Below, in pieces: positions 11,785-39,600 of a stretch of DNA of 43,580 nucleotides. The notes beneath the pieces were generated by a model. The model did not search any database. It had not been told where the DNA came from and was given only the letters and a program-made list of their open reading frames with translations. The stretch covers positions 1 to 43,580 of the forward strand of contig MESD01000060.1 of assembly GCA_001770815.1 (NCBI GenBank), written 5' to 3'. Made by a program: the position numbers and the translations under genes. Source of the stretch: Burkholderiales bacterium RIFCSPHIGHO2_12_FULL_69_20. GTDB taxonomy: Bacteria > Pseudomonadota > Gammaproteobacteria > Burkholderiales > Burkholderiaceae_C. The first letter of the stretch is position 1. Every line of letters begins with the position of its first letter.

Positions 11785-12477
11785 ATGGCCCGGCTGCCCC
11801 GCCTGGCCGTGGCCGGCGCCGCCCATCTGGTGGCGCTGGTCGGCCACAGCGCGCAGCCGGTGTTCGTCGACGACGAGGACCGGCAGCAGTTTCTGGCCGC
11901 GCTGCGTGAATCGGCGCTGCAGCACCAGGTGGCCGTGCATGCCTACGTGCTGCTGGCCGACCATGTGCATCTGCTGCTGACGCCGGCCAGCGCCAACGCG
12001 CTGGGGGCGCTGATGCAGGGCCTGGGCCGGCGCTACGGTGCGGCGTTCAACCGGCGCCACGGCCGGCGTGGCACGCTGTGGGCCGGGCGGTTCCGCACCG
12101 CGGTGGTGCAACCGGGTGAGTCGTTGCTGGAGGCGATGTTGTTCATCGACCTGCATGCGGTGCGCGGCGGTGGGGTGGTGTCGGCGGCCGACCATGCCTG
12201 GTGCAGTGCCGGGCACCACCTGGGCTTGCGCCGCGACCCCTTGCTCACCGAAAGCAGCGCCTGGTGGGCCCTGGGCAACACCCCGTTCGAGCGCGAAGCC
12301 GCCTACCGCCGTCGGCTGGACGAAGGCCTGCCAGCGGCCCGTGTGGCCGCGCTGGCCGAGGCCGGGCGCAAGGGCTGGGCGGTCGGTGATGCGGCGTTTC
12401 TGGCCGGACTGGCGCAGCAGGCGGCCCGGCCGGTGCAGCCGCGGCCACGCGGCCGGCCTCCCAAACCCCGCGCCTGA
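11785..12477 (+). CDS. REP-associated Y1 transposase-like protein with degenerate active site
   Basis: A 230-residue relative of the TnpA_REP/RAYT group (IS200/IS605-type Y1 transposases). The HxH metal motif of the HUH fold is intact (HVHLLLTP, His60 and His62), as are GRRYGAAFNRRHGRRGTLW and the C-terminal tail RGRPPKPR. Two hallmarks have decayed: the N-terminal IQRGNNR-like motif reads VALVGHSAQ, and the tyrosine helix normally written RYIELNPVRAG reads LFIDLHAVRGG, with Phe120 at the nucleophile position. It begins 6 bases after dgt. The reading frame is otherwise clean, so it is either a recently inactivated copy or a domesticated DNA-binding protein. From memory, such genes often sit just upstream of gltB in Burkholderiales. 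Confidence 0.82.
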   Translation: MARLPRLAVAGAAHLVALVGHSAQPVFVDDEDRQQFLAALRESALQHQVAVHAYVLLADHVHLLLTPASANALGALMQGLGRRYGAAFNRRHGRRGTLWAGRFRTAVVQPGESLLEAMLFIDLHAVRGGGVVSAADHAWCSAGHHLGLRRDPLLTESSAWWALGNTPFEREAAYRRRLDEGLPAARVAALAEAGRKGWAVGDAAFLAGLAQQAARPVQPRPRGRPPKPRA

Positions 12478-29573: not shown

Positions 29574-29701
29574 CGCGACTGGCCTATCCCGTGGAATGAG
29601 CGACATCAGGCAAACCCGCGATCGCGGCTTCGGGCTCGCCGCTGCCAGTTGTTGTTGTGCTTGAAAGCCGGCGTTCGACGGCCTGAGCGATCGCGCCGGC
29701 C

Positions 29702-29814
29702 CGGGCGGGCGTGCTCTGCTCCGTGTCATTCCGGGCCTGCGGCCCTCCCTTCTTTACCTGCGCAGAGCACGCCCGCCCGACCCGACGCTCAGGCACAACC
29801 GTGGCACGCGGGTT
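29702..29814 (+). repeat. Nested palindromic repeat element, copy 1
   Basis: The 398 bases between pgi and the next gene hold this element. An 18-base perfect inverted repeat (29702-29719 with 29762-29779, arm GCAGAGCACGCCCGCCCG) encloses a small hairpin GGGCC TGC GGCCC and the stretch CTTTACCTGC. Outside it a weaker repeat continues (GAAAGCCGGCGTTC near 29664 against GAACGTCGGCTTTC near 29817). Bases 29719-29814 match 36275-36370 at 91 of 96 positions by hand alignment. It lies upstream of the gene starting at 29972. No coding similarity was seen. Confidence 0.8.
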
Positions 29815-29971
29815 GCTGAACGTCGGCTTTCGACCAAGCGTATGGGCGGCAACGAGCCTACGGAAGCTGCCCGGCCAGCCCGGAATGCCGCTTTGCCATC
29901 CGGCGGGGTCACCAAGGTGTCGGCGCGTTCGACCCGAGGCTGGCACGCTTCATGATTCACAGGAGACGCCC

Positions 29972-31543
29972 TTGTCCGACAACATCCCCGCCCTGAACGG
30001 CGCCGAATCGCTGGTCACCACGCTGGCCGCCAGCGGCGTGAACCTGTGTTTTGCCAACCCCGGCACCTCGGAGATGCACTTCGTCGCCGCACTCGACCGC
30101 ATCGACGGCGTGCGCTGCGTGCTGGGCCTGTTCGAGGGCGTGGTCACCGGCGCGGCCGACGCCTACTACCGCATGGCCGGCAGCCCGGCCGCCACGCTGC
30201 TGCACCTGGGCCCGGGCCTGGGCAACGGACTGGCCAACCTGCACAACGCGCGCAAGGCGCACTCGGGCATCGTCAACATCGTCGGCGACCATGCCCACGA
30301 CCATGTGCGCTTCGAGTCGCCGCTCAAGAGCGACGCCGAAGGCATCGCGCGCGCTGTCTCGCACTGGGTGCGCAGCAGCGCCAGTGCGGCCGACGTGGGT
30401 GCCGATGGCGCCGCCGCAGTGCAGGCCACGCGTGATGGTGCGCTGGGCCGCATCGCCACGCTGATCCTGCCCGCCGACACCGCCTGGAGCGCCGGTGGCC
30501 GCGCGGCGATGGCGCGGCCGGTGGCAGCGCCGACCGCCGAACTCGGTGCCGTGCCCGCCGCCGCCCGCGCCTTGAAGCAGCTGGGCCCGCGTGCCGTGCT
30601 GCTGCTGGGGCAGGGCGGCACGCGCAGCGAAGCCGCGCTGCACCTGGCCCATGCCATTGCCGCGCACACCGGCTGCCGGGTGCTGGCCGAGTTCTACAAC
30701 GCCCGGATGCCCGGTGGCCGCGGACGCCCCGCCATCGAGCGCCTGCCCTACATGGTGGATGCCGCGGTGGCCAAGCTGGCTGGGTGCGAAACGCTGGTGC
30801 TGGCCGGCGCGGTCGAGCCGATCGGCTTCTTCGCCTACCCGGGCAAGCCGTCGCAATTGAAGCCCGCAGGCGCGGCGCTGCTGACGCTGGCCGAACCGCA
30901 CCACGACGTGCTGGCGGCGCTGCAGGCGCTGGCCGACGAGCTGGGTGCCAAGCCGGTCGCCATCGCCGCGGCACCGGGCCAGCCCGCGGCCCTGCCCACC
31001 GGCGCGATCACGCCCGAGAGCGCGGCGGCCGTGGTCGCCGCGGTGCTGCCCGAGCAGGCGGTGGTGGTCGACGAGGCGGTCAGCAGCGGCCGCGGCTTCG
31101 GTGTGCCGATGCGCCACGCCGCGCCGCACGACTGGCTGCCGACGATGGGTGGCGCGATCGGTTTCGGCCTGCCCGGTGGCGTGGGCGCGGCGCTGGGCGC
31201 ACCCGGCCGGCCGGTGCTGGTGCTCGAAGGCGACGGCAGCGCGATGTACACCGTGCAGGCGCTTTGGACGATGGCGCGCGAGCGCCTGCCGGTGGTGGTG
31301 CTGATCTTCGCCAACCGCGCCTACCGCATCCTGCAGGGTGAGCTGGCGGGCGTGGGCGCCACCATCAGCGGCGACAAGGCCACGGCGATGCTGTCGCTGG
31401 GCCAGCCGGCGCTGGACTGGGTGGCGCTGGCGCGGGGCCACGGCCTGCCCGGCGTGCGGGTCGACACCAACGAGGCGCTGGCCAAGGCGCTGCGCGACGG
31501 TTTTGCCAGCGGCGGGCCGTGCCTGATCGAGGCGGTGCTGTAG
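29972..31543 (+). CDS. Thiamine-diphosphate-dependent enzyme, acetolactate synthase/benzoylformate decarboxylase superfamily
   Basis: A 523-residue ThDP enzyme of uncertain substrate. TTG start at 29972 follows AGGAG at 29961-29965; the frame is open to 29711 but that part is the palindromic repeat. The N-terminal Pyr domain has the catalytic glutamate (LGLFEGVVTGAADAYYRMAG, Glu55), the middle domain is of the transhydrogenase-like type (RAVLLLGQGGTRSEAALHL), and the C-terminal PP domain holds the Mg-ThDP motif GDGSAMYTVQALW followed about 30 residues on by the Asn of FANRAYRIL. Such stand-alone proteins are often annotated as acetolactate synthase large subunit. No small regulatory subunit gene is adjacent, so a role in branched-chain synthesis is doubtful; a decarboxylase or carboligase on another 2-oxo acid is as likely. 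Confidence 0.8.
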   Translation: MSDNIPALNGAESLVTTLAASGVNLCFANPGTSEMHFVAALDRIDGVRCVLGLFEGVVTGAADAYYRMAGSPAATLLHLGPGLGNGLANLHNARKAHSGIVNIVGDHAHDHVRFESPLKSDAEGIARAVSHWVRSSASAADVGADGAAAVQATRDGALGRIATLILPADTAWSAGGRAAMARPVAAPTAELGAVPAAARALKQLGPRAVLLLGQGGTRSEAALHLAHAIAAHTGCRVLAEFYNARMPGGRGRPAIERLPYMVDAAVAKLAGCETLVLAGAVEPIGFFAYPGKPSQLKPAGAALLTLAEPHHDVLAALQALADELGAKPVAIAAAPGQPAALPTGAITPESAAAVVAAVLPEQAVVVDEAVSSGRGFGVPMRHAAPHDWLPTMGGAIGFGLPGGVGAALGAPGRPVLVLEGDGSAMYTVQALWTMARERLPVVVLIFANRAYRILQGELAGVGATISGDKATAMLSLGQPALDWVALARGHGLPGVRVDTNEALAKALRDGFASGGPCLIEAVL

Positions 31544-31584
31544 TCGGGCGACCCACGGCGGTGCATCGCGCCGCTGCCGGGGTG

Positions 31585-31602
31585 CCGATGCCATGGCATC
31601 GG
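31585..31602. repeat. Perfect 18-base palindrome
   Basis: CCGATGCCATGGCATCGG is its own reverse complement. It lies 41 bases after the stop of the ThDP enzyme gene. No T-tract follows on either side, so it may be a protein-binding site rather than an intrinsic terminator. Confidence 0.5.
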
Positions 31603-31668
31603 GGTTGATCCCAGGCCCGACGTGCCTGTCAGCGGTGGCACGGAACTGGCTTGGTCGGTGACAATAAG

Positions 31669-31684
31669 CTGACCATTTGGTTAG
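31669..31684. promoter_or_regulatory. RutR-type operator upstream of the ABC importer
   Basis: CTGACCATTTGGTTAG matches the RutR consensus TTGACCANNTGGTCAA at all positions except the two ends and one inner base (CTGACCA-TT-TGGTTAG; half-sites agree at 6 of 7 when one is reversed). It lies 32 bases before the first importer gene, whose cluster ends with a RutR-like regulator. Binding is inferred. Confidence 0.65.
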
Positions 31685-31716
31685 GTTCTGGTGCCACCGG
31701 CCTCGCGGCCCCGTCC

Positions 31717-32571
31717 ATGAATGCTCCTGATCGGCGCGCCGCCGCCGCACCCACCACACCCATCGCTGCACCCTCCGCCGCGGCGCCCAGCGCTGTCGAG
31801 GTGCGGGGCGCCAGCGTGATCTATCCGTCTGCCCAGGCCAATGATCAGCCGGTGCATGCGCTGTCGGAGATCGATCTGACCATCGCCGCCGGCGAGTTCG
31901 TCTCGCTGATCGGCCCCTCGGGCTGCGGCAAGACCACGCTGCTGCGCGTGATCGCCGACCTGGAGCCGATCACCTCGGGCCAGGTGCTGGTCAACGGCCT
32001 CACGCCGCACGCTGCGCGGCTGGCGCGGGCTTATGGCTACGTGTTCCAGGCGCCGGCGCTGTTCCCCTGGCGCACGGTGCTGGGCAACGTGATGCTGCCG
32101 CTGCAGATCCAGGGCCGGCCCAAGGCCGAGGCGGAAAGCGTGGCGCGTGAGCACCTGGACCGCGTGGGCCTCACCGGCTTCGAGCGCAAGTACCCCTGGC
32201 AGCTGTCGGGTGGCATGCAGCAGCGGGTGTCGATCGCCCGCGCGCTGGGCTTCGAGCCCAAGATCCTGATGATGGACGAGCCCTTCGGCGCGCTCGACGA
32301 GATCACCCGCGACGGCCTCAACGACCAGCTGCAGCAGCTGTGGCAGCGCGAGCGGCGCACGGTGGTGTTCGTCACCCACTCGATCGCCGAGGCGGTGTAC
32401 CTCAGCACCCGCATCGTGGTGATGAGCCCGCGCCCCGGGCGCATCTTGAAGATCATCCCCTCCACGCTGCCCGATCATCGCCACCTGGGCCTGCGCGACA
32501 CGCCCGAGTTCATGGCGCTGGCGCACGAGGTGCGCGAGGGCCTGGCCGACGGGCATGGCCACCACCACTGA
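31717..32571 (+). CDS. ABC importer ATP-binding protein (nitrate/taurine/pyrimidine-precursor type)
   Basis: ATPase of a SsuB/TauB/ThiZ-like importer. Walker A GPSGCGKTTLLRVIADLEP, Q-loop YVFQAPALFPW, signature LSGGMQQRVSIARAL, Walker B ILMMDEPFGALDE and the H-loop FVTHSIAEAVYL are present. 284 residues from ATG 31717, which begins MNAPDRR; the frame is open to 31651 but that segment includes the operator. The permease start overlaps its end. First gene of a five-gene unit running to 36164. Confidence 0.92.
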   Translation: MNAPDRRAAAAPTTPIAAPSAAAPSAVEVRGASVIYPSAQANDQPVHALSEIDLTIAAGEFVSLIGPSGCGKTTLLRVIADLEPITSGQVLVNGLTPHAARLARAYGYVFQAPALFPWRTVLGNVMLPLQIQGRPKAEAESVAREHLDRVGLTGFERKYPWQLSGGMQQRVSIARALGFEPKILMMDEPFGALDEITRDGLNDQLQQLWQRERRTVVFVTHSIAEAVYLSTRIVVMSPRPGRILKIIPSTLPDHRHLGLRDTPEFMALAHEVREGLADGHGHHH

Positions 32572-33475
32572 AGCGACGGCGATGAAGCCTGGTGTGTTGT
32601 CGTTGACCGACCGCCTGCTGCCGGTGGCCACGGTGCTGGCCTTCGTGCTGGCGCTCTGGTACGGCGGCGCGGTGGGCCTGAACCGCGCCGGTGCCATCGA
32701 GCGAATTTTGCCCAACAGCCACCCCAACGGCGACTGGACCACCGCCGACCTGATCACCACCACGCTGAACATGGAGCGCCCGGTGCTGCCCGCGCCGCAT
32801 CAGGTGGCGGCCGATCTGTACAGCAGCCTGGTCGACTGGCCGCTCGATTCACCGCGCAACCTGCTGTACCACGCGGCCGTTACCGCGCAGTCGACGCTGG
32901 TGGGCTTCGTGCTGGGCACGCTGCTGGGCATAGCGCTGGCGGCGGCCATCGTGCACAGCCGCACGCTCGACCGTGCGCTGCTGCCCTGGATCGTCGCCAG
33001 CCAGACCGTGCCGGTGCTGGCCATCGCGCCCATCGTGCTGGTGATCCTGGGCAGCCTGGGGTTCAGCGGCGTGGCGCCCAAGGCCACCATCGCGATGTAC
33101 CTGTGCTTCTTTCCGGTCACGGTGGCGATGGTGCAGGGCCTGCGCGCGCCGCAGCGCATCGAGACCGAGCTGATGCACACCTACGCCGCCAGCCGGTTGC
33201 AGGCCTTCTGGCTGCTGAGGATGCCCTCGGCGCTGCCCTACCTGTTCCCCAGCCTGCGGGTGGCGATCGCCGCCGGCGTGGTCGGCGCGATGGTGGCCGA
33301 GCTGCCCACCGGCGCGCAGGCCGGGCTGGGCGCCAAGCTGCTCACCGGCAGCTACTACGGCAACACCGTGGGCATCTGGTCGGCGCTGGTGATGTCGGCG
33401 CTGCTGGGGCTGGGCCTGACGATGGCCGTGGCCGGCATCGAGCGGCTGGTGCTGCGGCAGCGGAGGGTGGGATGA
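32555..33475 (+). CDS. ABC importer permease 1
   Basis: A BPD_transp_1-type permease of about 306 residues with a first membrane helix near residues 20-40, a periplasmic segment, then five to six helices. The EAA-type loop reads ELMHTYAASRLQAFWLLRMP, followed by AGVVGAMVAELPTGAQAGLG. Start is ATG 32555 (overlapping the ATPase gene) or ATG 32582; neither has a strong ribosome-binding site. Ends in an ATGA overlap with permease 2. Confidence 0.9.
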   Translation: MATTTEATAMKPGVLSLTDRLLPVATVLAFVLALWYGGAVGLNRAGAIERILPNSHPNGDWTTADLITTTLNMERPVLPAPHQVAADLYSSLVDWPLDSPRNLLYHAAVTAQSTLVGFVLGTLLGIALAAAIVHSRTLDRALLPWIVASQTVPVLAIAPIVLVILGSLGFSGVAPKATIAMYLCFFPVTVAMVQGLRAPQRIETELMHTYAASRLQAFWLLRMPSALPYLFPSLRVAIAAGVVGAMVAELPTGAQAGLGAKLLTGSYYGNTVGIWSALVMSALLGLGLTMAVAGIERLVLRQRRVG

Positions 33476-34437
33476 GCCCGGCGGGTTCCTTCGCCCTGCC
33501 GCGCCGGGTCTTGGGCTGGTGGGTGCTGTCGGTGCTGCTGGCCGCGGCACTGGGGTGGGTGGTGCCGGCCGCCGGCACGGTGGACAGCGCCTCGCCGCTG
33601 CACCTGATCGCCCTGCTGGTGGTGGCGGTGGTCGCCGTGGTCAACGTGCGCCAGGTCGCCGCGCTGGACGGCCACCCGCTGCTGGGCACGCTGGCCGCGG
33701 CGCTGTTCGGCGTGTGGATCGTCTATTTCTGGCAGGTGGGCGTCACGCTGTTCGACGTGCCGCGCGTGCTGCTGCCGTCACCGGCGTGGATCGCGCAGAT
33801 GATGGTCGACCGCTGGGACACGCTGGCCGGCGACTTCGTGCAGACGGTGCTCAAGGCGGTGCTGGTCGGCTGGGCGCTGGGCTCGGGCCTGGGGTTTGCG
33901 GTGGGCGTGGCGATCGACCGCGCGCCCTTCCTGCAGCGCGGCCTGCTGCCGATTGCATCGCTCACCAGCACCGTGCCGCTGGTGGCGGTGGCGCCGATCA
34001 TGGTGATGTGGTTCGGCTTCGAATGGCCCAGCAAGGCCGCGGTGGTGGTGCTGATGACCTTCTTTCCGATGCTGGTGGCCACGCTGGCCGGGCTGCAGGC
34101 GGCGGGCAAGCTCGAGCGTGAGCTGATGCACAGTTATGCCGCCAGCTATACGCGCACGCTGATCGACCTGCGCCTGCCGATGGCCATGCCGTTTCTCTTC
34201 AGCGCGCTGAAGGTCAATGCCACGCTGGCGCTGATCGGCGCGATCGTGGCCGAGTTCTTCGGCTCGCCCACCGTGGGGCTGGGTTTTCGCATCAGCACCG
34301 AGGCGGCGCGCATGAACATGGGCCTGGTGTGGGGCGCCATCGTGGTGGCGGCGGTCACCGGCTCGGTGGCCTATGCGCTGCTGGTACAACTGGAGCGGCG
34401 GGTGGCCTTCTGGCATCCCTCGATCCGGGCCCAGTGA
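33472..34437 (+). CDS. ABC importer permease 2
   Basis: A second BPD_transp_1 permease, 321 residues, with ATG 33472 overlapping the stop of permease 1. Three hydrophobic segments precede the transport domain (LKAVLVGWALGSGLGFAVG, STVPLVAVAPIMVMWFGF). The coupling loop ELMHSYAASYTRTLIDLRLP parallels that of permease 1, so the pair probably forms a heterodimer arising by duplication. Two different permeases in one importer is typical of the riboflavin/hydroxymethylpyrimidine/pyrimidine-type NMT1 systems in this class. Confidence 0.9.
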   Translation: MSPAGSFALPRRVLGWWVLSVLLAAALGWVVPAAGTVDSASPLHLIALLVVAVVAVVNVRQVAALDGHPLLGTLAAALFGVWIVYFWQVGVTLFDVPRVLLPSPAWIAQMMVDRWDTLAGDFVQTVLKAVLVGWALGSGLGFAVGVAIDRAPFLQRGLLPIASLTSTVPLVAVAPIMVMWFGFEWPSKAAVVVLMTFFPMLVATLAGLQAAGKLERELMHSYAASYTRTLIDLRLPMAMPFLFSALKVNATLALIGAIVAEFFGSPTVGLGFRISTEAARMNMGLVWGAIVVAAVTGSVAYALLVQLERRVAFWHPSIRAQ

Positions 34438-34504
34438 CGTTTCAAGCGAGTTCTCCCGCCAGGCCCCGGCCTGGTTCTTCCAAACCAAAGCACAGGAGTG
34501 AGCG

Positions 34505-35518
34505 ATGACGGGTTTCACGATCAAGGGGGCCGTGCTGGCCGCCGTTTTGGCAACCACCGGCCTGGCCGCCACCACTGCCGCACACGCCGCCGACAAGGTG
34601 GTGGTGCAGATGAAGTGGGTGCCGCAGGCCCAGTTCGCCGGCTACTACGTGGCCGCCGCCAAGGGCTACTACAAGGCCGAGGGGCTGGACGTCACCATCA
34701 AGCCGGGCGGCCCGGACGTGTCGCCGGTGCAGGTGCTGGCCGGCAACCAGGCCGACGCCATCGTCAACTGGATGCCCGATGCACTGGCCGCGCGTGAAGC
34801 CGGCGTGCCGCTGGTCAACATCGCTCAGATCTTCGACAAGAGCGGGCTGATGCTCACCTGCAAGAAGGCCAGCGGCGTGGCCACGCCGAAAGACTTCAAG
34901 GGCAAGACCCTGGGCGTCTGGTTCGGTGGCAACGAGTACCCGTTCCTGAACTGGATGGCCAAGCTGGGGCTGAAGCCCGATACCGATGTCAAGGTGCTCA
35001 AGCAGGGCTTCAACGTCGACCCGCTGCTGCAGAACCAGGCCGCCTGCATCAGCACCATGATCTACAACGAGTATTGGCAGGTGGTGGACGCCGGCGTGAA
35101 GGAGAGTGACCTGGTCACCTTCTTCTACGAGAAAGAAGGCGTGGCCTCGCTGGAAGACGGCCTGTACGTGCTGGAAGGCAAATTGAAGGACCCGGCCTTC
35201 GTGGCCCGCATGGGCAAGTTCGTCAAGGCCACGCTCAAGGGCTGGAACGATGCGGTGAAGGACCCCGCCGGCGCCGCCAAGATCGTCGTGGCGGCTGATC
35301 CTTCCGGCAGCGCCACGCTGAAGGTGCAGCAGCGCCAGATGGAGAACGTGGCCAAGCTGATCAGCAACGCCGGCACCGCCAAGATGGGCTACCTCGACCC
35401 GGCCGCCTACGAGCGCACGGTCAAGGTGCTGCTGGCTGGTGGCAGCAGCCCGGTGATCAAGAAAGATCCCGGCAAGGCCGCCTACACCCACGTGGTCTTC
35501 GAAGCCTCCAAGAAGTAA
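34505..35518 (+). CDS. NMT1/THI5-like substrate-binding protein of the ABC importer
   Basis: A 337-residue periplasmic binding protein with a signal peptide cleaved near AHAAD. The mature N-terminus VVVQMKWVPQAQFAGYYVA is the NMT1/THI5 family signature, followed by KGYYKAEGLDVTIKPGG and a DVSPVQVLAGNQADAIVNW segment that lines the pocket in this fold. Good ribosome-binding site (CAGGAG) before ATG 34505. Family members bind hydroxymethylpyrimidine precursors, riboflavin or pyrimidines; the adjacent RutR-like regulator and box favour a pyrimidine-type ligand. Confidence 0.88.
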   Translation: MTGFTIKGAVLAAVLATTGLAATTAAHAADKVVVQMKWVPQAQFAGYYVAAAKGYYKAEGLDVTIKPGGPDVSPVQVLAGNQADAIVNWMPDALAAREAGVPLVNIAQIFDKSGLMLTCKKASGVATPKDFKGKTLGVWFGGNEYPFLNWMAKLGLKPDTDVKVLKQGFNVDPLLQNQAACISTMIYNEYWQVVDAGVKESDLVTFFYEKEGVASLEDGLYVLEGKLKDPAFVARMGKFVKATLKGWNDAVKDPAGAAKIVVAADPSGSATLKVQQRQMENVAKLISNAGTAKMGYLDPAAYERTVKVLLAGGSSPVIKKDPGKAAYTHVVFEASKK

Positions 35519-35528
35519 GCCGCGGGCC

Positions 35529-36164
35529 GTGCGTTCGTCGGAGGACGAAGCCCGCAAGGGCCTGATCCGCCAGGCCAACGAGGCGCGCATCCTGGGCGCG
35601 GGCGAGAAGGTCTTCGCCCGCGCCGGTTTCAACGGCGCCACGATGGCGGCCATCGCCGACGAGGCCGGTCTGCCCAAGGCCAACCTGCACTACTACTTCG
35701 GCAGCAAGCTCGACTTGTACCGCGCGGTGCTGGCGCGCACGCTGCACGACTGGCTGGTGCCGCTGGATGGCCTGCAGCCCGAGGCCGATCCGCGCACCGC
35801 GCTGGAGACCTACATCCGCGCCAAGATGGCGATGAGCGCGCAGCGGCCCGATGCCAGCCGCGTGTTCGCCAACGAGCTGCTGCACGGTGCGGCCGTGGTG
35901 GGCGAGCTGATGCGCGGCGAGTTGCGCGCGATGGTGCGCAAGAAGGCCGCGGTGATCGACGGCTGGATCGCTGCGGGCCGCATGGCACCGGTGGATGCGA
36001 CGCACCTGTTCTTCACGATCTGGGCGGCCACCCAAACCTACGCCGACTTCGACGTGCAGGTGCGCGCGGTGCTGGGCCGTGACACGTTGACGCCGCGTGA
36101 CCATCAGCGCGCCACCGAGCATGTGGTGTCGCTGGTGCTGCGCGGCTGTGGGCTGGGTCGTTGA
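35529..36164 (+). CDS. TetR-family regulator, RutR-like
   Basis: A 211-residue TetR protein with GTG start 8 bases after the binding-protein stop. The N-terminal helix-turn-helix (MAAIADEAGLPKANLHYYF) is followed by a C-terminal domain strongly resembling RutR/YcdC: GSKLDLYRAVLARTLHDWL, ASRVFANELLHGA, VIDGWIAAGRMAPVDATHL and IWAATQTYADFDVQVRAVL. RutR of E. coli binds uracil and thymine and controls pyrimidine use. Orthology versus a related paralogue cannot be settled here, so no symbol is given. Likely represses the importer through the box at 31669-31684. Confidence 0.88.
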   Translation: MRSSEDEARKGLIRQANEARILGAGEKVFARAGFNGATMAAIADEAGLPKANLHYYFGSKLDLYRAVLARTLHDWLVPLDGLQPEADPRTALETYIRAKMAMSAQRPDASRVFANELLHGAAVVGELMRGELRAMVRKKAAVIDGWIAAGRMAPVDATHLFFTIWAATQTYADFDVQVRAVLGRDTLTPRDHQRATEHVVSLVLRGCGLGR

Positions 36165-36274
36165 CGACGGGATGTCGCTTTTCGGCTCGTTGCTGCCTAT
36201 ACCGCCTATACCGTCGGTTTAAGGCCGACGGCCGGCGGTTCGCGCGAGGACGAGGCCGGCGGGTGACTGGCTGA

Positions 36275-36370
36275 CTCCATGTCATTCCGGGCCTCCGGCC
36301 CTCCCTTCTTTACCTGCGCAGAGCACGCCCGCCCGGCCCGACGCTCAGGCACCACCGCGGCACGCGGGTT
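36275..36370 (+). repeat. Nested palindromic repeat element, copy 2 (one arm missing)
   Basis: Matches 29719-29814 at 91 of 96 positions, same orientation. The inner hairpin GGGCC TCC GGCCC and the right arm GCAGAGCACGCCCGCCCG are kept, but the left arm that pairs with it in copy 1 is absent (upstream sequence is unrelated), so this copy looks truncated or recombined. It occupies the first half of the 456-base gap between the RutR-like gene and mfd. Confidence 0.8.
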
Positions 36371-36402
36371 TGACAGCCGCGCCAGCGCGCCAGCGGTGGG
36401 TA

Positions 36403-36507
36403 GCCGAGGGCGTCGGGTGAGCGGATGCCGCAGGTAAAGGGGGAGGCTTCAGCCGCAGGGCTGAAGTCGGAGGACACGGAGGCAGCCGCTCACCCGGCGG
36501 CCTCGGC
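36403..36507 (-). repeat. Nested palindromic repeat element, copy 3 (opposite orientation, different stems)
   Basis: Outer arms 36403-36424 and 36486-36507 pair at 20 of 22 positions. The inner stem is CTTCAGCC (36447-36454) with GGCTGAAG (36459-36466), loop GCAG. Between the stems lie GCAGGTAAAG, GGGAGG, CCGCAGG and GACACGGAG, which are also present, in the same order, on the minus strand of copy 1. The stem sequences themselves differ from copy 1. The remaining bases to mfd (36508-36620) show nothing beyond a small GGTGCG/CGCACC hairpin at 36594-36608. Confidence 0.75.
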
Positions 36508-36620
36508 TTTGCGCCGACCCATGAACGGCAGCGCATCAACCAGCACAAGCGTCAGCAAAGAGCCACTTCAAACCATCGGCCATGTGGGCACTAGGTGCGT
36601 CGCGCACCGCGAAGCCCCAA

Positions 36621-39600
36621 CTATTGGGGCGCAGCAGCCACCGGTGGGCCCAAGGCCCGCAGCACATCGCGCACGTACTGCGCCCGGTCCTTGGGGTCGG
36701 CAAACTCGCGCTCGATGCGCAGCTTGTCGTTGCCGGCGAGCTTGATGTTCTTGTTCTTCTGCACCAGCGCGATGATCTTCATCGCGTCGATCGGCGGGTT
36801 GGGGCGGAAGGTGATGTTCATCAGCCGCGGGTTGGCATCGATCTTGGCCACGCCATAGGGCTTGGCCAGCACCCGCAGGCGGTGCGTGTCGAACAGCGTC
36901 TGGCCCTGGGCGGGCAGCTTGCCGAAACGGTCGGTCACCTCTTCGAGCAGCACGTCCAGCTGCTCGGGCCGCTCGGCGGTGGCCAGGCGCTTGTACAGGC
37001 TCAGGCGCACCGCCACGTCGCCGCAATAGGCGTCGGGCAGCAGCGCCGGGGCGTGCAGGTTGATCTCGGTGGTGGCGCCGAAGATGCCGGTGGGGCTCAG
37101 CAGGTCGGGCTCGTGCCCGCTCTTCAGCGCGCGCACCGCTTCGGCCAGCATGTCGTTGTAGAGCTGGAAGCCCACCTCCATCATGTTGCCGCTCTGGTGC
37201 TCGCCCAGCACCTCGCCGGCGCCGCGGATCTCCAGGTCGTGCATCGCCAGGTAGAAGCCCGAGCCGAGTTCCTCCATGCTCTGGATCGCGTCCAGCCGCT
37301 GCTGCGCCTGCTTGGTCAGCGTCTCGGTGTCGGGCACCAGCAGGTAGGCATAGGCCTGGTGGTGGCTGCGGCCCACGCGCCCGCGCAGCTGGTGCAGCTG
37401 CGCCAGGCCGAACTTGTCGGCGCGGCTCATGACGATGGTGTTGGCGCTGGGCACATCGATGCCGGTCTCGATGATGGTGCTGCACAGCAGCAGGTTGTAG
37501 CGCTGGGCGATGAAATCGCGCATCACCGATTCGAGTTCGCGCTCGGGCATCTGGCCGTGGGCGATGGCGATGCGCGCCTCGGGCAGCAGCTCCACCAGCC
37601 GGTCGCGGCGGGCGTTGATGGTGTCGACCTCGTTGTGCAGGAAGTAGACCTGGCCGCCGCGCTTCAACTCGCGCAGCACCGCCTCGCGGATCACGCTGTT
37701 GCCCTCGCTGCGCACGAAGGTCTTGATCGCCAGCCGGCGCTGCGGCGCGGTGGCGATCACGCTCAGGTCGCGCAACCCTTCCAGCGCCATGCCCAGCGTG
37801 CGCGGGATCGGCGTGGCGGTCAGCGTCAGCACATCCACCTCGGCGCGCATCGCCTTGATCGCCTCCTTGTGGCGCACGCCGAAGCGGTGTTCTTCGTCGA
37901 TCACCAGCAGGCCCAGCCGCTTGTACTTGACGTCGGGGCTCAGCAGCTTGTGCGTGCCGACGACGATGTCGACGGTGCCGGCTTCCAGCCCGTCCAGCGC
38001 GATCTTGATTTCCTTGGACGAGCGGAAGCGCGACATCTCGGCGATGCGCACCGGCCACTTGCCGAAGCGGTCGACCAGGGTCTGGTAATGCTGCTCGGCC
38101 AACAGCGTGGTGGGCGCCAGGATGGCCACCTGCTTGCCGCCGATCACCGCGATGAAGGCCGCCCGCAGCGCCACCTCGGTCTTGCCGAAGCCCACGTCGC
38201 CGCAGACCAGCCGGTCCATCGGCTGCGGGCTGACCATGTCCTGGATCACCGCGTGGATGGCCGCGCGCTGGTCGGGCGTCTCCTCGAAACCGAAGCTCGA
38301 CGCGAAGGCTTCGTAGTCGTGCGCCGAATAGCGGTGGGCGTAACCCTCGCGCGCCGCGCGGCGGGCATACAGGTTCAGCAGCTCGGCGGCGGCGTCGCGC
38401 ACCTGCTCGGCGGCCTTGCGGCGGGCCTTCTCCCACTGGCCCGAGCCCAACCGGTGCAGCGGCGCTTCTTCAGCGCTGACGCCGGTGTAGCGGCTGATCA
38501 GGTGCAGCTGGCTCACCGGCACGTACAGCGTGGCCTTGTCCGCATATTGCAAGTGCAGGAACTCGCTGGGGCCCTCGCCCAGGTCGATGTTGAGCAAGCC
38601 CTGGTAGCGGCCGATGCCGTGGCTGGCATGCACCACCGGGTCGCCGATCTTCAGCTCGGACAGGTCCTTGATCAGCGCATCGACGCTGCTGACCTGTTCC
38701 TGCTTGCGGCGCCGGCGGCCCTGCGGCGAGCTGGCAAACAGCTCGGTCTCGGTGATGAACTGGATCGAGATGGCCTGCGCGGGCTCGTGCCAGTGGAAGC
38801 CCGCGGCCAACGGCGCCGCGGTGATGCAAAACTTCTGATCGCTGGCCTCGAACTCGGCCAGCGTCTTCACGCTGGGGGGCTCGATCTTGTGGTCGCGCAG
38901 CAGCTCGAGCAGGCTCTCGCGCCGGCCGTCGCTCTCGGCGACGATCAGCACCCGGTGCGGCGTGCTGTCCAGGTGTTTGCCCAAGGCCGACAGCGGCTCG
39001 GTGGCGTTGCGGTCGGCCGCCACGTCGGGCAGCGGGCGGGCCCAGTCGACCGGATCATGGCCACGCAGCGCCAGCGTGGCATGGCGGTTGGCGTTGGTGA
39101 AGAATTCTTCGCTGCGCTGAAAGATCTCTTCGGGCGCCAGCACCGTGCGGTCGGGATCGGCGGCGATGAACCGGTGGCGCTCGCGGGTGTCGGTCCAGAA
39201 GTGCTCGAGCGCGGCGTCCACCTCGCCGTGCAGCACCAACTGCGCGGCGTCACCGAGGTAGCTGAAGATCGTGCCCGGCTCGTCGAAGAACAGCGGCAGG
39301 TAGTACTCGATGCCGGCCGTGGCGATGCCCTGCGCGATGTCCTTGTAGATGCGGCTCTTGGTCGGGTCGCCTTCGAGCTTTTCGCGCCAGCGCTGGCGGA
39401 AGGTGGTGCGCGCCGCCTCGTCCATCGGGAACTCGCGGCCTGGCAGCAACCGCACCTCGGGCACCGGGTACAGGCTGCGCTGGCTGTCGGGGTCGAAGGT
39501 GCGGATCGAGTCGACCTCGTTGTCGAACAGGTCGACCCGGTAGGGCACCAGCGAGCCCATCGGAAACAGGTCGATCAGCCCGCCGCGCACGGCATATTCA

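Follow-up and report, generated by a model that had tools for sequence, protein, structure and literature searches.

The window (the whole stretch of 43,580 nucleotides that was analysed) holds two elements of the same kind, each with inverted repeats at its ends; they probably belong to a family of non-autonomous mobile palindromes of the Burkholderiales, REPIN-like in their working; we would give this reading a probability of roughly 0.6. Copies of the family display covariation in their stems, strand-specific pairing, a divergent arrangement of paired hairpins, dispersal within genomes and insertion polymorphism. The letters of the stems can change freely as long as pairing is kept, whereas the loop is fixed. 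In the mechanism that we propose, exposure of the DNA as a single strand would let the strand with the loop fold in each hairpin, an enzyme encoded elsewhere would recognise the fixed loop, and the element would then be moved or copied into intergenic spacers. Single hairpins, such as the one described first below, would be remnants.

The two elements of the window

Element A (29632–29858, no strand assigned) is 227 bp long, holds one hairpin and is bounded by the inverted-repeat motifs GGCTCGCCGCTG (29633–29644) and GCAACGAGCC (29849–29858), which are the same as those bounding near-identical copies in genome G008 (see below). Its nested hairpin (hairpin A, 29697–29783, minus strand) scores 74.2 bits with R1, a covariance model built from 43 rows of copies that do not include those of the window, and its outer arms pair at 21 of 22 positions. 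The inverted arms lie at 29693–29719 and 29762–29788, and the core, with internal loop and inner stem, was located by a core pattern match at 29719–29758 (minus strand). Element B-C (36184–36564, no strand assigned) measures 381 bp, comprises a divergent pair of hairpins and is likewise delimited by inverted-repeat motifs, GGCTCGTTGCTG (36184–36195) and GCAAAGAGCC (36555–36564). Hairpin C (36408–36503, plus strand) is nested as well, with an R1 score of 76.5 bits, outer arms that pair at 20 of 22 positions, inverted arms at 36402–36429 and 36481–36508, and a core matched by the pattern at 36433–36481 (plus strand). Between hairpins B and C there is a spacer (36339–36407, no strand assigned) with a partial inverted repeat of its own, seen in the sequence.

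Hairpin B (36253–36338, minus strand) reaches only 39.4 bits and its outer arms pair at only 13 of 22 positions. Its inner arm is of the A type and its outer arm resembles that of an intact hairpin of another genome (L172), and from these mixed arm types and the poor pairing it looks chimeric, joined inside the common core. With up to three mismatches allowed, the core pattern is matched three times in the window versus 0.32 expected, a number reached by 1 of 100 shuffles, and the folding z-scores of the four strands range from −5.9 to −7.7. Synteny breaks at B-C (36157–36634), the preceding stretch and the mfd gene that follows matching separate contigs in G008 and other genomes. Together with the chimeric nature of hairpin B, this raises the possibility that copies recombined and so rearranged the genome at this place.

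A first-pass annotation of this DNA had described two palindromes, both of which are real nested hairpins (A and C) at the positions claimed for them; it had missed hairpin B and the inverted-repeat ends, so that its inventory was incomplete. The interval 29702–36507 that it gave comprises two elements with several genes in between and is no single feature. Its block CCGCAGG consists of inner stem plus loop and differs in other copies, and is therefore no feature of the family.

Architecture and covariation of the family

The family core can be written as GCAGGTAAAGGAGGAG-[inner stem]-CGGGGGACACGGAG, of which hairpins A and C have variants. In our alignment A2 the loop GCAGGTAAAGGAGGAG / CGGGGGACACGGAG is common to 43 hairpins, with inner stems of variable length. 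Hairpins are about 90–105 nt in size, and their conserved unpaired letters are internal, forming a conserved asymmetric internal loop between the outer stem and the short inner stem. Over about 25 bp nearly all positions of the outer stem pair, beyond which pairing drops to background level. Identity between copies is 93% in the core and 45% in the arms. One position of the outer stem (A2 columns 3/103) is unpaired in 11 of the 43 rows and is perhaps a recognised mismatch.

Over 26 pairs of the 43-row alignment, 97.2% of the cells pair, versus 57.4% when shuffled; 25 of these pairs vary on both sides (versus 22.0 in shuffled alignments, of which 5 in 500 get to 25). Covariation scores 0.956, compared with 0.203 in shuffled and at most 0.160 in slid alignments. 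Because an arm filter had been applied to these rows, we repeated the test on copies found by the core pattern alone (distinct sequences with full flanks), where all 43 distinct sequences pair at 20–22 of the 22 outer-arm positions; in the slid control the mean is 8.9 and the maximum 14. The sequences in both tests are related, and their counts do not represent independent events. The proposal that unpaired conserved blocks are accompanied by covarying stems is supported, with very strong covariation over many copies and a core shared beyond chance. Of the findings that the same annotation had named as refuting it (a match in Rfam, a lack of covariation, chance likeness of the shared blocks), none turned up.

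Most units are composites. Among 72 units, 47 are pairs, every one of them divergent with its hairpins 36–135 nt apart, and 25 are single; the input to this count was 119 hairpins in 70 loci, entered by hand, omitting the weakest matches, those truncated at a contig edge and those of G029, and three of the singles (L156, L206, and L310) adjoin a contig end, so that their partner is or may be cut off. Units with one hairpin have about 230 bp and those with two about 310–380 bp. Distant families retain the loop and the divergent pairs, some with an additional middle stem. The copies examined in genome G029 (L255–L274) are single hairpins with another common right tail ending near AATAGC, and many of them also have a further repeated, structured stretch upstream.

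Selection on one strand

Mismatches in the outer stems are very unevenly distributed, with 178 G.T and 5 A.C in 113 hairpins. This sample derives from 178 hairpins, partly chosen by hand, which were reduced to 116 with distinct arms, three with fewer than 15 paired positions being omitted. Since a G.T mismatch on one strand is an A.C mismatch on its complement, the two should be about equally frequent if neither strand were selected, and the excess appears in both orientations (G.T to A.C, 77 to 2 and 101 to 3). Where the neighbouring genes run in the same direction, the ratio is 30 to 1 for hairpins lying along them and 39 to 0 for those lying against them (n = 21 each; gene directions from a crude gene caller, with L158 and L294 set separately). 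The skew is equal along and against the genes, which indicates that selection acts on the strand of each hairpin that bears the loop and that transcription of the host region is no explanation. One defined strand per hairpin is under selection, whatever the direction of the neighbouring genes. We consider this a clear example of strand-specific structural selection on a mobile palindrome that the sequence by itself suffices to reveal and to tell apart from effects of host transcription.

The selected strand could be RNA or single-stranded DNA, both readings being possible. The main rival of the mobile palindrome is accordingly a structured RNA function, in which the hairpins would act as RNA, transcribed outward or within host transcripts, bound by protein or processed, and their spread would be secondary. 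The G.T excess of 178 over 5 is what G.U pairing would leave and would fit RNA no less well than DNA; a survey of REP sequences also reports that GT pairs are frequent, which its authors interpret as pointing to an RNA function (PMC3733652). Copies within the urtD-urtE operon (see below) also speak for it. However, selection through host transcripts is unsupported by the equal skew in hairpins along and against the genes, the divergent pairs would require two outward transcripts from a spacer of 36–135 nt, and Rfam gives no match. On balance we find the RNA reading rather unlikely. The first-pass annotation had offered two options, a structured RNA and a transposable palindrome shaped by structural selection, and covariation, one-strand selection and mobility all support this alternative as it was worded. 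For covariation-based discovery of RNAs these hairpins carry a warning, as strong covariation together with G.U pairs can stem from a mobile element as well as from a regulatory RNA.

Mobility and insertion sites

Several comparisons reveal movement of the element. Two pairs of dispersed copies in genome G008 share 97.9% identity along 340 and 335 bp, the likeness being confined between GGGCTC and GAGCCC. A composite-bearing insert of about 312 bp adjoins a stop codon in G216, at a site that is empty in G293 and G105. A less clean site is that of G400, with about 512 bp including a composite where G190 has about a dozen bases. No direct target repeats were seen at nine elements with both ends visible.

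Another site is found in the urea transporter operon, where 8 of the 26 genomes with a urtE match have hairpins immediately upstream of this gene (L389, L390, L396, L394, L400, L404, L406, and L413), with urtD seen on the opposite flank in six of them. Among the other 18 genomes, six have spacers of 1–22 nt, three overlapping genes and five longer spacers without an R1 match, and four were not parsed. The upstream arms at the urtD-urtE site agree at 19–21 of 22 positions between G013, G202, and G118, from which these copies may be one old insertion. Their being kept across several genera could reflect a local function, and an insertion hot spot is also possible. The near-identical dispersed copies, the empty site and the polymorphic occupancy of urtD-urtE, as compared between genome sequences, point to a mobile element.

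The search for a mobilising enzyme

A REPIN or BIME proper would be moved by a RAYT (REP-associated tyrosine transposase), and the inverted intergenic hairpin doublets do resemble REPINs (PMC3116915). RAYT was the obvious candidate for the mover because the window itself holds a RAYT-like gene (11785–12477, plus strand), situated before gltB and the sole PF01797 match in its genome. Its product is above the cut-off of Pfam Y1_Tnp and scores 57.9 bits with the NCBIfam model of REP-associated transposases, below the cut-off of 80. At what we take to be the position of the motif tyrosine in the aligned PF01797 proteins, phenylalanine is found in all four proteins of the Aquabacterium group (that of the window and those of three related genomes), and the other nine have tyrosine (eight) or cysteine (one). 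Judging from this alignment, the gene in the window is perhaps a domesticated or dead transposase.

Against RAYT as the mover, R1 hairpins were absent from all 30 loci fetched around PF01797 genes (38 genes were found, eight of them without a locus). G008 and G400, with 30 and 11 R1 hairpins, have no PF01797 match in their draft genomes. The four aligned Aquabacterium-group proteins have phenylalanine in place of the motif tyrosine, and there is no GTAG or CGTC tag at the foot of the hairpins. We have therefore rejected RAYT as the mover and regard a RAYT-moved REPIN as quite improbable. Conversely, PF01797 is present and the core pattern absent in G061 and G095.

An end-pattern search in G216, G105, and G293 recognised no autonomous copy or parent insertion sequence, and the matches in G216 with up to two mismatches fall at known composites. 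The lack of a recognised mobilising gene in these three genomes counts against the mobile-palindrome reading, as do the absence of direct target repeats at the nine elements with both ends visible, the single units mentioned above (25 of 72) and the single hairpins among the copies examined in G029. The identity of the mover would tell whether recognition of a folded single strand spreads DNA outside the Y1 enzymes (RAYT/IS200).

Relation to known elements

The first-pass annotation knew of no named family that matches, and we found none either, with 0 Rfam matches at gathering score in the window and in eight loci of distant copies. With permissive settings Rfam returned nothing beyond weak rows at the level of chance (best E 0.06), and a known RNA family was rejected for want of a match. 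Literature searches with the core sequences and related topics, in which coverage of subscription journals was thin, returned no description of the element among their listings; the core sequences led to a single paper, on an unrelated aptamer.

The closest comparison is with REPINs and BIMEs, which (PMC3116915, PMC3733652, and PMC2817692) are also short, non-coding, intergenic inverted doublets, with singles read as remnants and with stems that show compensatory changes and GT pairs. REPs are defined as palindromes of 20–40 bp, one end of which carries an unpaired tag, GTAG or CGTC (PMC3733652), whereas the nested hairpins described here are far larger (about 90–105 nt), conservation lies in an internal loop and not in a GTAG or CGTC foot, and the elements have inverted-repeat ends and no RAYT link that we could find. 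Copy numbers differ too, as REPINs and BIMEs usually exceed 100 copies per genome, compared to 1–32 hairpins in 17 carrier genomes here.

MITEs are non-autonomous elements of a few hundred bp with inverted-repeat ends and dispersed copies. The present elements share with them the size, the non-autonomous dispersed nature and the ends, GGGCTC..GAGCCC in G008 and in window-type copies, but differ in that no target repeats were seen at nine elements, no parent insertion sequence was recognised in G216, G105, and G293, and the structured interior is strand-specific. Integron attC sites are imperfect hairpins with variable stems that work as one folded DNA strand. The likeness would lie in the variable-stem imperfect hairpins and the single folded strand; in the present family, in contrast, it is the internal loop that is conserved, and divergent pairs are scattered singly across the genome.

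A structured Burkholderiales motif, Burkholderiales-1, is listed as an ambiguous RNA without Rfam accession (PMC2864571) and might be the same as the present element, which may therefore not be new. The description that we think somewhat more probable than its opposite is that of a REPIN-like mobile palindrome whose hairpins are nested around a fixed internal loop, which has inverted-repeat ends and for which no RAYT link was found. More tentatively, and as the less likely case, the elements might form a class of bacterial mobile DNA distinct from REPINs. In such a class an enzyme would recognise each of two divergent nested hairpins, in the form of one folded strand, by the fixed asymmetric loop GTAAAGGAGGAG / CGGGGGACAY; this enzyme would act in trans and be other than Y1 (RAYT or IS200), and the stems would be kept by compensatory change through G.T intermediates.

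Distribution

The exact gapped core pattern occurs in 17 of 399 genomes of the family and 13 of 141 genera, and a reversed control pattern in none. With strict filters, R1 finds hairpins in 17 of 399 genomes of the order and 9 of 159 genera, two other families included. In the genome of the window there are 11 matches to the gapped core pattern and 16 to R1. Counts with R1 in 18 genomes, picked as carriers except G293, go from 0 in G293 and 1 in G105 to 32 in G029 (1–32 in the 17 positives). Draft assemblies undercount the copies, given that contigs break inside elements, as seen in contigs that begin or end within them at L001 (G000:C33, start), L006 (G000:C200, end), L155, and L156. A looser scan of genome contigs gave 80 stretches, most of them without pairing arms.

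Copies are mostly intergenic, although 18 of 75 overlap a gene call made with a crude gene caller. That they are ordinary intergenic hairpins or terminators, alike by chance, would fit this location and the 20 of these 75 that lie between convergent genes (31 of 163 for other spacers, by the same crude calls), but is scarcely credible for copies with a 93% identical core, no match to the reversed pattern, insertion polymorphism and positions inside the urtD-urtE operon. Spread by phages or plasmids was among the ideas that we rejected: one stretch with the strict pattern was found in a viral collection, a match in Novosphingobium among the plasmid records is weak, and divergent pairs are present on three large Variovorax replicons in the same records.
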